From the NCBI RefSeq assembly GCF_900475755.1, contig NZ_LS483411.1, forward strand, positions 186,001 to 250,000: DNA of 64,000 bases. The letters are read 5' to 3'. The position numbers and the translations under genes are program-made. Position 1 is the stretch's first letter. Every line of letters starts with the position of its first letter. This document shows positions 9,120-62,287 of the stretch, one piece after another. Below the pieces are notes generated by a model. That model did not search any database, had not been told where the DNA came from, and worked only from the letters and a program-made list of their open reading frames with translations. The DNA is from Haemophilus influenzae (GTDB taxonomy: Bacteria > Pseudomonadota > Gammaproteobacteria > Enterobacterales > Pasteurellaceae).

Positions 9120-9803
9120 TTAAAGATAATAATGTTCTACGTAATTTAATTTATCATCAAGTTTTAAAACTAAAGGCTGACCTGTTGGAATTTCAAAATC
9201 CATAATTTCAGCATCAGAAATACCGATAATATGTTTTGCCAACGCACGGAGTGAGTTACCGTGAGCAACCACTAAAACACGTTTGCCAGAAAGCATTGCC
9301 GGCGCAATTTGATCTTCCCAGAATGGAAGTGCACGTTCTAATGTTAATTTTAAATTTTCTGCGTTTGGCACAACATCAGATGGAACATTAGCATAACGGC
9401 GATCATTGTGTGCAGAGTTTGGATCTTGTGGATCTAGATCCGGTGGAGAAATATCATAAGAACGACGCCAAATATGAACTTGTTCGTCACCGTATTGCTC
9501 CGCAGTCGCTTTTTTATCTAAACCTTGCAAAGCACCGTAGTGACGTTCATTTAAACGCCAGTTTTTCACTTGCGGAATCCATAATTGGTGGGATTCTTCT
9601 AACACGATGTTACAAGTTTTGATTGCTCGAGTTAAAACAGAGGTAAATGCGATGTCGAATTCATAACCTTTGTCTAACAACTTTTTACCCGCAGCTTTTG
9701 CTTCTTCTACGCCGCGTTCTGTTAAATTTACATCACGCCAACCCGTGAATAAGTTTTTCGCATTCCATTCACTAAAACCGTGACGGATAAATACTAATTC
9801 CAT
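9120..9803 (-). CDS. gpmA: 2,3-bisphosphoglycerate-dependent phosphoglycerate mutase
   Basis: Interconverts 3- and 2-phosphoglycerate in glycolysis. The 227-residue protein begins [14 protein letters not shown], the phosphohistidine RHG motif. It also has [28 protein letters not shown] and [15 protein letters not shown] with the second active-site His. It is about 20 residues shorter than E. coli GpmA, a common short form. The gene stands alone, convergent with rpmE. Confidence 0.96.
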
Positions 9804-9978
9804 AAGAATCTCCTAATGTTTTCAAATAAAAAGAACGCACATTTTATAGCAAAAAATCCTTAGCTTTAAAAGTTAAAAGGGATGATTTCCTGATCTTTAA
9901 CAAAAAATAACCATCAAACTTTTTCGCCTTTTCACAAATATGATAAGATTTGCGAGTTTTACGGATTTAGGATGAATT

Positions 9979-11211
9979 ATGTTGCGTTTAGGCGTTAATC
10001 AAAAAACATCATTATTATTAACCGCACTTTTAAGCTGCGGTTTATTAATATTTTCGCCTGTCAGCCAATCTTCCGATCTCAATCAAATTCAAAAACAAAT
10101 TAAGCAACAAGAATCTAAAATTGAGAAGCAAAAACGTGAGCAAGCTAAGTTGCAAGCGAATTTAAAAAAACACGAGAGTAAAATTAACACTGTTAAGGGA
10201 GAACTGCTTGAAACCCAAATAAGTTTAAAGGAAATTCGTAAGCAAATTGCCGATGCAGATAAGCAGCTCAAACAATTAGAAAAACAGGAACGTGAGCAAA
10301 AAACACGATTAGCTAAACAAACGGATATAATTTACCGTTCAGGCATTAATCCATCGCTGATTGAACGAATGTTTGCCCAAGATCCAACAAAAGCAGAGCG
10401 AATGAAAGTTTATTATCAGCATTTAAATCAAGTTCGGATTGAAATGATTGATCATTTAAAAGCAACGCAAGCACAAATTGCAGTACAAAAAGAGGCGATT
10501 CTCGCTCAACAAAAAAACCACCGAAATCAACTTTCCACACAAAAAAAACAACAACAAGCATTGCAAAAAGCACAGCAAGAGCATCAATCTACGCTGAATG
10601 AACTCAATAAAAATTTAGCCCTAGATCAAGATAAATTGAATGCATTAAAAGCAAACGAACAAGCACTTCGTCAAGAAATTCAACGAGCAGAACAAGCAGC
10701 GCGCGAACAAGAAAAACGTGAAAGAGAGGCACTTGCGCAACGCCAAAAAGCTGAAGAAAAACGAACATCAAAACCTTATCAACCCACTGTGCAAGAACGA
10801 CAATTACTTAATAGTACAAGCGGTTTAGGGGCGGCAAAAAAACAATATTCCTCACCAGTGTCTGGTTCAATTTTGCATACTTTTGGTTCTATCCAAGCAG
10901 GCGAAGTACGTTGGAAAGGTATGGTAATTGGCGCATCAGCAGGCACGCCTGTTAAAGCAATTGCTGCTGGACGTGTCATTTTAGCAGGATATTTGAATGG
11001 CTATGGTTATATGGTTATTGTTAAACACGGTGAAACTGATTTAAGTTTATATGGCTTTAATCAAGCGGTGTCAGTGAAGGTTGGTCAGCTTGTTTCAACA
11101 GGGCAGGTTATTGCTCAAGTAGGAAATACAGGGGAAATATCACGTTCTGCGCTTTATTTTGGTATTAGCCGTAAAGGAACGCCAGTAAATCCTGCAGGGT
11201 GGATTCGTTGA
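9979..11211 (+). CDS. envC: EnvC-like murein hydrolase activator (degenerate LytM)
   Basis: A 410-residue periplasmic protein: signal peptide, then a long coiled coil (about residues 35-265, rich in Q, K and E), then a C-terminal LytM/M23 domain (about 290-410). Zn-ligand residues are lost (SLYGFN in place of an active HxH block, ALYFGISRKG at the end). It therefore probably does not cut murein but activates N-acetylmuramoyl-L-alanine amidases at the septum, as E. coli EnvC does. An uptake signal at 10021-10029 is read as T-A-L within the signal peptide. The deacetylase-like gene overlaps its stop by 1 nt, as E. coli pairs envC with yibQ. Confidence 0.9.
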   Translation: MLRLGVNQKTSLLLTALLSCGLLIFSPVSQSSDLNQIQKQIKQQESKIEKQKREQAKLQANLKKHESKINTVKGELLETQISLKEIRKQIADADKQLKQLEKQEREQKTRLAKQTDIIYRSGINPSLIERMFAQDPTKAERMKVYYQHLNQVRIEMIDHLKATQAQIAVQKEAILAQQKNHRNQLSTQKKQQQALQKAQQEHQSTLNELNKNLALDQDKLNALKANEQALRQEIQRAEQAAREQEKREREALAQRQKAEEKRTSKPYQPTVQERQLLNSTSGLGAAKKQYSSPVSGSILHTFGSIQAGEVRWKGMVIGASAGTPVKAIAAGRVILAGYLNGYGYMVIVKHGETDLSLYGFNQAVSVKVGQLVSTGQVIAQVGNTGEISRSALYFGISRKGTPVNPAGWIR

Positions 11212-12053
11212 TGAATATTCTGATAGAAAGTGCGGTAAAAAATTTCATTATTTTTTCTACCGCACTTTATGCCTCTTTTTCTTTTGCTCAAAGCAAACTT
11301 GCGATTGTCATTGATGATGTAGGCTATCATTCCAAGGAAGATGCAGCAATTTTTGCGATGCCGCGTGAAATATCGGTGGCAATTATCCCTGCAGCACCCT
11401 ATGCTCGAGTACGTAACCAAGAAGCGAAATCTCAAGGCAGAGATATTTTAATCCATATGCCGATGCAACCAATTAGTGCAATTAAAATCGAAGACGGTGG
11501 ATTACATTTAGGAATGTCTGCAACACAAGTAAATGATCGCGTTAATACCGCTAAAAATATTGTACGTGATGCCATCGGTATGAACAATCATATGGGCAGT
11601 GCAGCAACGGCCGATCCCCAATTAATGACTTATTTAATGACCGCACTTCAAGAAAAACATTTATTCTTTTTAGATAGTCGAACAATAGGAAAATCTGTCG
11701 CAGGAAAAATAGCAAAAGAACAAGACGTGCGTTCATTAGATCGCCATATATTTTTAGATGATAGTAACGAATTCGCAGACGTTCAACGTCAATTTAAAGC
11801 AGCAATTCACTATGCCAGAAAACACGGCACCGCCATTGTCATTGGTCATCCTCGACCAAATACCATTGCGGTGTTACAAGCAGGACTTCGTAATTTACCC
11901 GAAGATATTCAATTAGTCGGAATGGGAAATTTATGGCGAAATGAAAAAGTTATTCCGCCCAAGCCATTTATTTTATTATTCAGCGAAATGCCAGCGCCAA
12001 CCTCAATGGGACCTTTTGAGCCTGTAGAATTATTACGAGGCGTACCAAAATAA
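11211..12053 (+). CDS. divergent polysaccharide deacetylase-family protein (YibQ-like)
   Basis: A 280-residue secreted protein of the divergent polysaccharide deacetylase family (DUF610). It has KLAIVIDDVGYHSKED, ILIHMPMQPI, NNHMGSAATAD and GTAIVIGHPRP, the remnants of the NodB fold. Substrate and activity are unproven. The start ATG shares a base with the envC stop (TGATGA), so translation is coupled. The signal-peptide codons carry an inverted pair of uptake signals (11229-11267) that could fold into a hairpin within the first 20 codons. Confidence 0.85.
   Translation: MNILIESAVKNFIIFSTALYASFSFAQSKLAIVIDDVGYHSKEDAAIFAMPREISVAIIPAAPYARVRNQEAKSQGRDILIHMPMQPISAIKIEDGGLHLGMSATQVNDRVNTAKNIVRDAIGMNNHMGSAATADPQLMTYLMTALQEKHLFFLDSRTIGKSVAGKIAKEQDVRSLDRHIFLDDSNEFADVQRQFKAAIHYARKHGTAIVIGHPRPNTIAVLQAGLRNLPEDIQLVGMGNLWRNEKVIPPKPFILLFSEMPAPTSMGPFEPVELLRGVPK
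11229..11267. repeat. inverted pair of uptake signals inside a coding start
   Basis: AAAGTGCGGTAAAAAATTTC and its partner TTTTTTCTACCGCACTTT face each other inside codons 7-19 of the deacetylase-like gene. Such pairs normally lie between genes and act as terminators; here the pair encodes part of a signal peptide. Confidence 0.85.
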
Positions 12054-55561: not shown

Positions 55562-55585
55562 ATATTATATCCCAGCGATAAGTTC

Positions 55586-55712
55586 AAAGGCTTACGGTGC
55601 TTTATCCACCATACGCAATGATAAAGAGGTGTGTACACTGGGTTTTGCTGGTGGATTGTTTACGTGGATTTATGCAGGTTTATATGGATTGGCGTAGGGA
55701 ATGGGAGTTGAA
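55586..55712. repeat. distal direct repeat (copy A) of the selC region
   Basis: These 127 bases match 57180-57307 with 5 substitutions and one single-base gap (GGG against GGGG). On the minus strand it begins with TTCAACTCCCATTCCCTACG, a damaged copy of the last 23-24 nt of tRNA-Sec (intact: TTCCCCTCCG), then 104 bases of downstream sequence. It lies 24 nt after the mutS stop. Confidence 0.95.
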
Positions 55713-55906
55713 TTTGAGTTGTAACTTTATGAAAAATAAGGATATTATTTTTTAGCATTAAAATTATGGTACAAAATATAGTACTAAAAAATTTTTTTGT
55801 TGATTTTTGATTGTTTTTTAATCAAGTTTGAAAGCACTCCTAAATGATGATTTGATAGTGTCCAAAATCAAACTTTAAACATCTTAAAGCCACCAGAAAA
55901 AAAGAA

Positions 55907-55931
55907 AAATGCGATCAATTTGACCGCACTT
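55907..55931 (-). terminator. decayed uptake-signal dyad after the ATPase gene
   Basis: AAATGCGATCAA faces TTTGACCGCACTTT. The right arm is a perfect uptake signal; the left has two changes (AAATGCGAT for AAGTGCGGT). It lies 19 nt past the ATPase stop and may act as a weak terminator. Confidence 0.5.
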
Positions 55932-55949
55932 TATTGTTTGATATTTGCC

Positions 55950-57038
55950 TTAGCTGTTTTCCTTAATCCACGTTTGAAAATATGGGCTGTTTATTTTTAT
56001 TGTGCCGTTTGCGTTACGTGTAATAAGCTCTTTTCTTTCTAGCTTTCTCACTTTCCCTTGTATTGTGCTTGAGCTAATATCTTCTATCCCTAACGCTTTA
56101 GCAAAATAGGCGCGTTTTTCTTTGCTATATAGTGCATTTTCGCCATTTACAACGCTCTTTAATATTTCCCGTTCTATTGAGCTTAATTCTTGCCATATCT
56201 TCACGCTGTCGCCTAATTCACTCATTTGAGTAATCCTATATTCTGATGCTTGCTTAAGTGATAGATTAGGGTTGATAATCATATCTTGAGCAATTGAACG
56301 CATATAAAGAGGGGTAAAATTAAATCGTTCAAAGAGTTCATAAAATTGATTCTTGTCGATTTCTTGCCCTGTTCTGCTGTGATAAATATCGGCTAGAAAA
56401 TCCGTAAAATCTTTGCCTAAATTTGGAAAATATAAAGGATGTGCAAAATGAAAAAACGGTGCTTTGTTGTCATTAAACATTGCCCGCAATCCATTTGTGC
56501 TACTTCCTGTGAAAATCACTTTTATCTTTTGTTGATTTATATCTAAACCAGTACGCAATGAACGGATTAGCCCTATAGTATGGCTCACTCTTGCCAGTTC
56601 TTGAACTTCATCAAGTAACATTAAAACGGGTTTATCGCTAGATTCTGTAATGGCATTAATAATCTGAACAAGGCTTAGTTCATCAAGTTTAGTTTGATTT
56701 TTATCTTGTAATTCAACGCTTACGCCCATTAAGTCAATGGCTTTTAGTTTATCAAACAAGTTATTGGTTTTGCCGTCCACCACATCAAGAAAGTGTATTA
56801 GCTCACGTGTAAAAACATTGCTCAACTCGTTACTAGTCCTATCCATAAAACTAAAATAGAACACATTAAACCCTAATTTCTCTGCTTTCGGCTTTACGTC
56901 ATTAAGTAAAAATTGGGTTTTCCCCATTCTGCGGGGTGCAAAAAGGGTTATGGCGTGTAATATTCCATCTTTTAGGCTTGATAGTAATCGTTCTGCTAAT
57001 TCAGAACGGGGGAAATAAAGGGGATCTGCCTGTGTCAT
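55950..57038 (-). CDS. lone AAA/STAND-like ATPase with C-terminal winged helix
   Basis: A 362-residue protein of the archaeal/bacterial ATPase type (COG1672-like). The N-terminal Walker A is FAPRRMGKTQ (residues 34-42), Walker B is PVLMLLDEVQEL (about 137-148), and a sensor-like VIFTGSSTNGL follows near 172-182. A helical region comes next, then a C-terminal winged helix (about 285-360, SSIEREILKSVVNG and RKLERKELI). There is no nuclease, toxin or membrane segment. It is the only gene between the 127-bp repeats at selC. Function unknown: it could be a regulator, an anti-phage sensor ATPase, or a cargo relic. No integrase or partner is present. Confidence 0.75.
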   Translation of the reverse strand: MTQADPLYFPRSELAERLLSSLKDGILHAITLFAPRRMGKTQFLLNDVKPKAEKLGFNVFYFSFMDRTSNELSNVFTRELIHFLDVVDGKTNNLFDKLKAIDLMGVSVELQDKNQTKLDELSLVQIINAITESSDKPVLMLLDEVQELARVSHTIGLIRSLRTGLDINQQKIKVIFTGSSTNGLRAMFNDNKAPFFHFAHPLYFPNLGKDFTDFLADIYHSRTGQEIDKNQFYELFERFNFTPLYMRSIAQDMIINPNLSLKQASEYRITQMSELGDSVKIWQELSSIEREILKSVVNGENALYSKEKRAYFAKALGIEDISSSTIQGKVRKLERKELITRNANGTIKINSPYFQTWIKENS

Positions 57039-57071
57039 TTTTAGCCTCTTTATATTGTTTTATACTCTCTT

Positions 57072-57107
57072 TGTATAATTATACTTTTAATGTATAAAAA
57101 TGTATAA
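57072..57107. promoter_or_regulatory. TGTATAA repeats upstream of the ATPase gene
   Basis: TGTATAA occurs at 57072, 57091 and 57101, and GTATAA is mirrored in TTATAC near 57079. They fall 34-70 nt upstream of the ATPase start codon, where a promoter would lie. This may be a binding site for the encoded winged-helix protein or simply AT-rich promoter sequence. Confidence 0.35.
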
Positions 57108-57179
57108 GCCTTTATTCTGTTTCTGTTGGCTGTCGTGTGATCATGATGAAAGATGATTATCGCTAGTAGTTAGAAATTA

Positions 57180-57307
57180 AAAGGCTTGCGATGCTTTATC
57201 CACCATACGCAATGATAAAGAGGTGTGTACACTGGGTTTTTCTGGTGGATTGTTTACGTGGATTTATGTAGGTTTATATGGATTGGCGGAGGGGAATGGG
57301 AGTTGAA
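57180..57307. repeat. selC-proximal direct repeat (copy B)
   Basis: This 128-bp copy contains the intact 3' end of tRNA-Sec (57284-57307: acceptor, CCA and part of the T arm) plus 104 bases downstream. It pairs with copy A at 55586-55712. The arrangement is like attR/attL of an element integrated in the 3' end of a tRNA gene, but the shared block is much longer than usual for such sites. Confidence 0.95.
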
Positions 57308-57378
57308 CCCACCCAAGAACGCTGGCGTCCCCAACAGGATTTGAAATCCTGCCACCTCACCGGAGATGACGCCCCTCC
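57284..57378 (-). tRNA. selC: tRNA-Sec (anticodon TCA)
   Basis: A 95-nt tRNA on the minus strand, the same length as E. coli selC. The long acceptor arm is GGAGGGGC..., the D region is TCTCCGGTGAGG, and the anticodon arm AGGATTTCAAATCCT carries TCA. A long variable arm (TTGGGGACGCCAGCGTTCTT) is followed by GGTTCAACTCC and encoded CCA. It decodes in-frame UGA with SelA, SelB and a SECIS element. It is divergent from selA, with a 70-nt gap. Its 3' end is duplicated at 55690-55712. Confidence 0.95.
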
Positions 57379-61682: not shown

Positions 61683-61979
61683 ATGGCACTTACGAATTCC
61701 TCTATCAGCTTTAGAACAGTTGAGCAAACAAAATCAGAAGCTTATCAAGTTATTGAACAATATGGACTTACCCCATCACAAGTATTCAATATGTTTTTGG
61801 CTCAAATTGCCAAGACTCGCTCTATCCCTATTGATTTGAATTATCTTCGCCCAAATAAAGAAACCTTAGCAGCTATTGATGAATTAGATAGTGGTAACGC
61901 AGAGAGCTTTTTTATTGAAGCTAGTGAAAATTATTCTGCCGAAGAATTTACAAAACGCATTCTTAATGGTGGTCAATAA
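61683..61979 (+). CDS. RelB/DinJ-family antitoxin
   Basis: A 98-residue antitoxin. The N-terminal ribbon-helix-helix ([20 protein letters not shown], then [25 protein letters not shown]) is the RelB/DinJ type. A C-terminal tail (about 60-98) would wrap the toxin. It is translated just upstream of the toxin; the stop and the next start share one base (TAATG). Confidence 0.88.
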
Positions 61980-62287
61980 TGTCAGAAGAGAAGCCATTAA
62001 AAGTAAGCTATTCAAAACAATTTGTAAGAGATTTAACTGATTTAGCTAAACGCTCCCCCAATGTGTTAATTGGCTCAAAATACATTACTGCAATATACTG
62101 TTTATTAAATCGTTTACCTTTACCCGAAAACTACCAAGATCACGCATTAGTAGGAGAGTGGAAAGGTTATCGAGATTGCCATATTCAAGGCGATTTGGTA
62201 CTGATTTACCAATACGTTATACGCGATGAATTTGATGAATTGAAATTTTCTCGTTTAAATACACACTCACAAACCGCTTTAAAATAG
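61979..62287 (+). CDS. YafQ/RelE-family mRNA interferase toxin
   Basis: A 102-residue RelE-superfamily toxin of the YafQ type. It has YSKQFVRDLTDLAKR, then LPENYQDHALVGEWKGYRDCHIQGDLVLIYQ, with the conserved His/Asp/Arg pattern of YafQ, and a C-terminal FSRLNTHSQT (the THxEL-like end is changed to THSQT). YafQ cuts mRNA at the ribosome, mainly at AAA codons. It partners with the RelB/DinJ protein encoded upstream. Confidence 0.88.
   Translation: MSEEKPLKVSYSKQFVRDLTDLAKRSPNVLIGSKYITAIYCLLNRLPLPENYQDHALVGEWKGYRDCHIQGDLVLIYQYVIRDEFDELKFSRLNTHSQTALK

Follow-up and report, generated by a model that had tools for sequence, protein, structure and literature searches.

A lone ATPase gene at selC in Haemophilus influenzae: remnant of a genomic island, and a DNA array that its product may recognise ahead of its own gene

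Beside selC, the gene for tRNA-Sec, one chromosome of Haemophilus influenzae carries a single ATPase gene enclosed by two direct repeats of 127 bp, an arrangement that raises the questions of how such a locus arose and what the ATPase does there. Both were addressed by analysis of a window of 64,000 nucleotides, whose numbering is used throughout, and by comparison with related genomes and loci (designated by G and L numbers). The explanation that we consider quite probable is a joint one, in which the locus is the remnant of a selC island and the ATPase controls its own expression through an array of half-sites. The features concerned are as follows.

55565..55645, minus strand: part of copy A, 3' end of an HTH antitoxin gene including the stop codon
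55586..55712, minus strand: repeat copy A (repeat search, pairwise alignment)
55637..55689, minus strand: part of copy A, island left-end sequence, as in copy B
55690..55712, minus strand: damaged selC 3' end, remnant of the far att site (pairwise alignment; counterpart in G060 and G065)
55713..55905, minus strand: far island flank; DNA near selC in G018 and G021 also matches an internal piece of it
55906..55932, minus strand: terminator-like hairpin past the ATPase gene, including AAAGTGCGGTCAAA, which we take to be the Haemophilus uptake-signal core
55950..57038, minus strand: gene for an AAA+/STAND-type ATPase of 362 aa with a predicted C-terminal winged helix
57061..57096, minus strand: half-site array TATAC-N7-GTATA-AT-TATAC-N7-GTATA, before the ATPase gene
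57078..57106, minus strand: sigma-70-like promoter TATACA-17-TATAAT (10/12), overlapping the array
57180..57239, minus strand: part of copy B, 3' coding end of the HTH antitoxin gene, truncated at a CCTTT junction with the ATPase upstream flank
57180..57307, minus strand: repeat copy B (repeat search, pairwise alignment)
57231..57283, minus strand: part of copy B, island left-end sequence adjoining selC (comparison with relatives)
57284..57378, minus strand: selC, tRNA-Sec, intact, its 3' end opening copy B (ARAGORN; RF01852, 71.7 bits)

The repeats themselves are as originally predicted. A repeat search found 120 nt ungapped at 94% (55580-55699 versus 57174-57293) with a 16-nt exact continuation offset by one base, and pairwise alignment gave identity at 126 of 133 positions, with 7 mismatches and 1 gap, the 127-bp core accounting for 5 substitutions and the one gap. 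The 3' end of selC is intact in copy B, as judged by ARAGORN and RF01852, and damaged in copy A by alignment. Within 1,834,484 bases of the same genome, two copies were found and none further at E <= 0.001, which argues against a genome-wide repeat family and places the pair far beyond chance. The only open reading frame of at least 60 aa between them is the ATPase gene, on the minus strand, so that the integrase is indeed absent, as had been claimed; a tyrosine integrase beside the tRNA is thus lacking from the window's element. Three PF00589 matches exist in the genome, those at C1:204587 and C1:664652 being among the matches listed, with the ATPase at 241953. An Rfam scan returned, besides tRNA-Sec, one match, which lay below its gathering score. 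Elsewhere in the window, at 61683-62287, two small open reading frames lie side by side, by appearance presumably a RelB/RelE-type pair.

On comparison with relatives, the 127-bp repeat proves to be a composite scar rather than the att site of an element with a single gene. Three pieces make it up: 23-24 nt from the selC 3' end, about 53 nt from the left end of an island, and about 60 nt from the 3' terminus of an antitoxin gene. The 104 bases that the original prediction placed downstream of selC are made of the second and third of these. The left-end sequence also adjoins selC in G060, G065, G021, G099, G100, G020, G135 and G018, while the antitoxin part forms the 3' end of the coding sequence of an HTH gene in G060 (L043), in G065 (L044) and at a second place in G064 (L064). 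The G060 version of this gene matches Pfam HTH_3 and MqsA_antitoxin, and both there and at the L064 place it follows a RelE-like gene, whose RelE score of 26.5 bits is slightly below the cut-off of 27. The antitoxin tail of copy A ends within a few bases of the mutS stop codon (55561). Since an island left end is joined directly to an antitoxin tail, the repeat reads as a deletion scar. The real att repeat, on the same comparison, is the 23-24 nt of tRNA end duplicated around the insert (57284-57307 and, damaged, 55690-55712), and the earlier reading of the whole block as one long att site falls.

Within the genus, ten genomes were compared, the window's and nine others, with one genome per species. 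Three of the nine have an empty site (G058, G059, G061), at which selC runs straight into a neighbouring gene region, presumably that of pepD. At the occupied sites of G060 (H. haemolyticus M19187) and G065 (H. quentini K068), by comparison, behind the ATPase gene come the tRNA-end repeat and the empty-site region, in that order, which bears out integration in the selC 3' end with the tRNA rebuilt; because of the empty sites, the objection that all related strains might share one arrangement does not apply. As the ATPase is the last gene of a selC island in these two sister species, the idea of a self-contained single-gene cassette gives way to that of a larger island ending in the ATPase. Specifically, G060 carries at selC an HTH gene, the RelE-like gene, a further HTH gene, the ATPase and att, with a far flank that continues as the G058 empty site; an integrase was looked for between its selC and ATPase and none was seen. 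In G065, the selC contig bears an integrase (Arm-DNA-bind_3 plus Phage_integrase) and an AlpA-like gene, and a second contig reads HTH-ATPase-att; we infer that the two form one island, the whole of which, ATPase included, was seen on one contig in none of the ten genus genomes. Among other genera, G027 and G026 show the order selC-integrase-ATPase, and G086 has both an integrase and the ATPase in the neighbourhood of selC. Relatives with an integrase at selC are G065, G027, G105 and G109, and, as regards a P4-like phage satellite, the genes seen among relatives are those for an Arm-DNA-bind_3 integrase, an AlpA-like protein and DUF927.

A single scar free of the ATPase is present in G062 and G063, in which selC is followed by a smaller scar, 13 nt of left end and an antitoxin tail reaching mutS. 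G066 has left-end-like sequence at selC with mutS about 7 kb off. In G064 (H. aegyptius NCTC8502), a scar like that of copy A lies beside mutS and the ATPase is retained, placed between mutS and the end of a gene otherwise located after selB. This G064 locus (L042, about 9667-11303) is without selC, selA and selB, and the best tRNA-Sec score of the genome is far below those of the other nine. A separate observation concerns G062 (L106, 10074-11455), in which selA is apparently split over two reading frames.

Taken together, these comparisons identify the window's element as the remnant of an island without its integrase, commonplace in kind but unusual in its double scar, and its ATPase, by the same comparisons, as leftover cargo of a mobile island once inserted at the selC 3' end. 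The history would have begun with the entry of a tyrosine-integrase island at the 3' end of selC, which would then have lost its integrase along with most of its other DNA, and the 127-bp repeats would be one deletion scar (selC 3' end, left end and antitoxin end) present in two copies. The left-end/antitoxin junction of the window recurs beside mutS in G064, whereas that of G062 and G063 is shorter, so the scar predates the split of G064 from the window genome. Copies A and B, however, have the letters GTGTACACACC in common, which are absent from G064, indicating that one copy was made from the other later. Copy B ends at CCTTT, and the sequence onward is the ATPase upstream flank as in G065, which starts with those same letters. 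A strain with one scar between selC and mutS is therefore likely to have acquired DNA carrying the ATPase, the att remnant and a scar, with long homology joining the incoming DNA on one side and CCTTT microhomology on the other, so that a scar would come to stand on both sides. Haemophilus is naturally competent. Homology-facilitated illegitimate recombination is described for naturally competent species (PMC3240628), and a scar-anchored crossover combined with a microhomology join would give exactly the two-sided picture observed. The remnant was thus probably re-assembled by recombination.

As to the protein, a Pfam scan of its 362 aa returned ATPase_2 (2.8e-9) and AAA_14 (5e-8), both above cut-offs, and helix-helix-strand-strand order, as in a winged helix, was seen at the C-terminus of an AlphaFold2 model, in agreement with the original description. 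The P-loop (APRRMGKT) and the Walker B acidic pair (in L-DE-QELAR) fall in columns that are invariant or nearly so among 22 homologues. Homologues occupy varied genomic sites and flanks in other genera, and over 86 locus rows no constant neighbour gene was found, the largest neighbour cluster comprising 9 loci and integrases 8. The name 'selenocysteine synthase', attached at source to several homologues, is probably an annotation error that has spread. In three Aggregatibacter genomes (L056, identical to L138, L058 and L141) the ATPase is divergent beside one neighbour gene, which we take to be the selenoprotein gene fdhF; other Aggregatibacter differ there. A selenocysteine role was considered and rejected, since a SelA family match is absent and the homologues are scattered over many sites, which points to misnaming and a local hotspot. 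Phages and plasmids were likewise rejected as the direct source of the ATPase: among 50,697 phage records a single one matched, with an identity of 20.8%, IMG/VR added 2 loci, and the plasmid matches, in 108 of 72,556 records, were all below 60% identity.

One possible function, about which we remain doubtful and which is compatible with the preferred explanation, is that the ATPase is anti-phage STAND cargo, silenced by the array until infection. In its favour, the gene belongs to the variable cargo of islands with integrases, Avs3 and plant NLR proteins are among the fold matches of its product, and hotspots of phage satellites are known defence reservoirs (PMC9122126). In the profile searches, PF01637, the SSO1545-type ATPase profile, scored 37.6 bits against a curated cut-off of 33.2, and on the defence side PADLOC returned as its sole match a weak and partial one to PDC-S01 (4e-4; residues 89-185 of the ATPase core). 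That family is described as carrying a PD-(D/E)XK nuclease fused to the ATPase (PMC12988326), a part unmatched in the window protein, and Pfam, NCBIfam and PHROGs scans of the ATPase found no nuclease family. Furthermore, unlike Avs/STAND defence proteins, the window protein has, beyond its ATPase core and winged helix, no sensor repeats or effector domain in Pfam and PADLOC scans. A defence role is a guess from the genomic setting.

Under the preferred explanation, it is the DNA before the gene that deserves attention. The pattern TATAC-N7-GTATA-AT-TATAC-N7-GTATA (at most 2 mismatches) occurs at 28 places in 22 of 140 Pasteurellaceae genomes, while a reversed control pattern occurs in 0 of 140; 14 of the places are upstream of the ATPase, 5 are second arrays downstream of it and 9 are solo. 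Eight of 22 ATPase genomes lack a match to the exact pattern, and the array letters differ in at least several of these. When the more general repeated half-site AATTA-NNN was sought within 115 nt upstream, it was present in 48 of 82 rows and absent from 34, whereas downstream it was present in 6 of 80, at a distance of 700 nt upstream in 1 of 82, and in shuffles in 4.4 on average (maximum 11); the count took 82 of the 86 locus rows, four having been dropped for a partial match or missing start, and since one Aggregatibacter locus was entered twice (L056, L138), the figures 86, 82 and 48 each include one duplicate. The letters following AATTA vary by clade, and include TAC, TGT/TGC, GAC/GAT, GTA, CAA and CCA.

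Such an array might belong to the promoter in the ordinary way or serve another regulator as its site, its co-variation with the protein arising from shared ancestry, a reading that we judge unlikely. The core of the array is rich in A and T and coincides in part with a -10-like box, the promoter-like matches in the stretch numbering 4 against a shuffle mean of 5.8 and hence showing no excess. Array letters and many residues alike are common to whole clades, and a plain mutual-information ranking places other columns high too, with only 2 of its 15 top columns within 315-345. Co-variation was examined in 36 non-redundant rows out of the 48 with an array, among which residue 328 had the top mutual-information z (9.5) of 317 columns, with columns 189 and 214 close behind. 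Against shared ancestry stands an identity-matched test, in which pairs were sorted into bins according to their identity over positions outside the helix: here residues 328 (z 11.4) and 331 (z 9.9) came first of 362 columns, the next reaching 7.2, values that serve as a ranking rather than as p-values because pairs are not independent. These two residues lie one turn apart in the predicted recognition helix (323-335, AlphaFold2 model). Similarly, two Neisseria proteins that are 64% identical differ both in array (TA and TG) and in residue 328 (G and S), and a Rhodanobacter plasmid homologue of 27% identity, found by tblastn, combines G328 with a TATAC/GTATA array.

The pairing of residue 328 with array letters in the 36 non-redundant rows was G with TA in 11/11, T with TG in 5/5, S with GA in 6/8 and N with GT in 3/5; over all 82 rows the corresponding figures were 18/22, 7/8, 6/18 and 3/13, the rest having mostly no repeated half-site. 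Further loci inspected by eye gave G 1/1, T 3/3 and S 4/7 (8/11 together) and N 0/5, with half-sites spaced one base wider in the three T328 loci, and with two of the S cases being Acinetobacter plasmids near loci already used; L282, which repeats a used locus, was left uncounted. Because residues 328 and 331 best track the array letters and lie in the predicted recognition helix, the ATPase most likely binds its own promoter. The data thus suggest, at the level of sequence, that it recognises patterned DNA ahead of its own gene: the winged helix would bind inverted half-sites overlapping the promoter and might thereby repress it, and, with the helix so placed, the ATPase most likely controls its own expression. 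Against this model speak the 34 rows that lack a repeated half-site, the high plain ranking of columns outside the helix, the imperfect fit of the S328 and N328 types, and the persistence of arrays where the ATPase gene is absent.

We think it rather improbable that the ATPase and array instead constitute a selfish or mobile unit, with the array as a docking, replication or recombination site. Such a unit would fit the nine solo arrays (G009, G021, G025, G034, G049, G050, G105, G109 and the second place of G064, C1:1632919), the presence, in 5 of the 22 ATPase genomes (G035, G037, G038, G133, G134), of a second array directly downstream of the gene as well as one before it, the varied sites of the gene and lack of a constant partner, and the fold resemblance to Orc1/Cdc6 and TnsC. 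Yet 5 of the 9 solo arrays (G021, G025, G105, G109 and the second of G064) lie in island settings that lack the ATPase alone, so that loss of the gene accounts for them; a Pfam scan of the ATPase found neither a nuclease nor a recombinase domain, and a constant neighbour that could be the partner transposase of a TnsC/MuB/IstB-type ATPase is lacking from the 86 locus rows. A transposon-like unit with fixed borders was rejected on comparison of the Aggregatibacter loci, whose flanks were variable and gave neither constant border nor target duplication. The first eight solo-array genomes named have no ATPase genome-wide, and tblastn found none at the array loci. The solo arrays of G049 and G050 occupy one shared place between two chromosomal genes, and those of G009 and G034 adjoin AAA+DUF4143-like genes (a Pfam match in the case of G034); in G133 and G134, a terminator-like stretch ahead of the second array is likewise repeated. 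A related and similarly improbable proposal is that the AAA+ protein assembles on about six half-sites as an initiator or target-site box, the solo arrays being places left behind or open to re-entry. If the selfish reading were true, the locus would represent a unit of mobility or immunity made of one gene, whose DNA address code evolves.

Finally, a compact one-gene integrative cassette, with the 127-bp repeats as att and an integrase acting in trans, would suit a single gene between two long direct repeats at a tRNA end but is highly improbable, as the repeat has three parts of differing origin, att in G060 and G065 is the tRNA end alone, the antitoxin tail belongs there to a full gene, and the ATPase sits elsewhere, with other flanks, in other genera.

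With the island remnant and self-regulating ATPase as the preferred explanation, a puzzling repeat becomes a readable history of insertion, island loss and recombination. What is new here is a half-site array before the ATPase whose letters differ between clades and are tracked by residues 328 and 331, and the part worth following is the ATPase with its co-varying array. This is the first concrete handle found on what lone SSO1545-type ATPases touch, namely a DNA array at their own gene, and it opens this widespread family, so far uncharacterised, to functional tests by simple binding assays. A literature search recognised no paper describing this locus or array.

Several known systems resemble the locus in part. 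Islands at selC with an Arm-DNA-bind_3 (P4-type) integrase share with it the same tRNA, a selC-adjacent left end and a duplicated tRNA 3' end, and in relatives they carry the RelE/HTH and ATPase cargo; unlike them, the window copy is without integrase and has the same scar on both sides. The fold match to Cdc6/Orc1 initiators may reflect merely the shared AAA+/winged-helix plan. With the SSO1545/PABY2304-type AAA+ ATPases (ATPase_2; PDB 2fna, 2qen), the window protein aligns at a low global TM of 0.36 and a large rmsd, so that its domain placement is unsure; in the portions of the literature available, no matching array before the gene was found for these proteins. The mycobacterial protein IniR has an AAA+ domain likened to SSO1545, a MalT-like middle and an SdiA-like C-terminal DNA-binding domain, and regulates another operon (PMC5760070). 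Unlike IniR, which has 818 aa, the window protein has 362 aa and an array before its own gene, and on that description the two have in common an AAA+ domain combined with a C-terminal DNA-binding domain, the latter predicted in the window protein.
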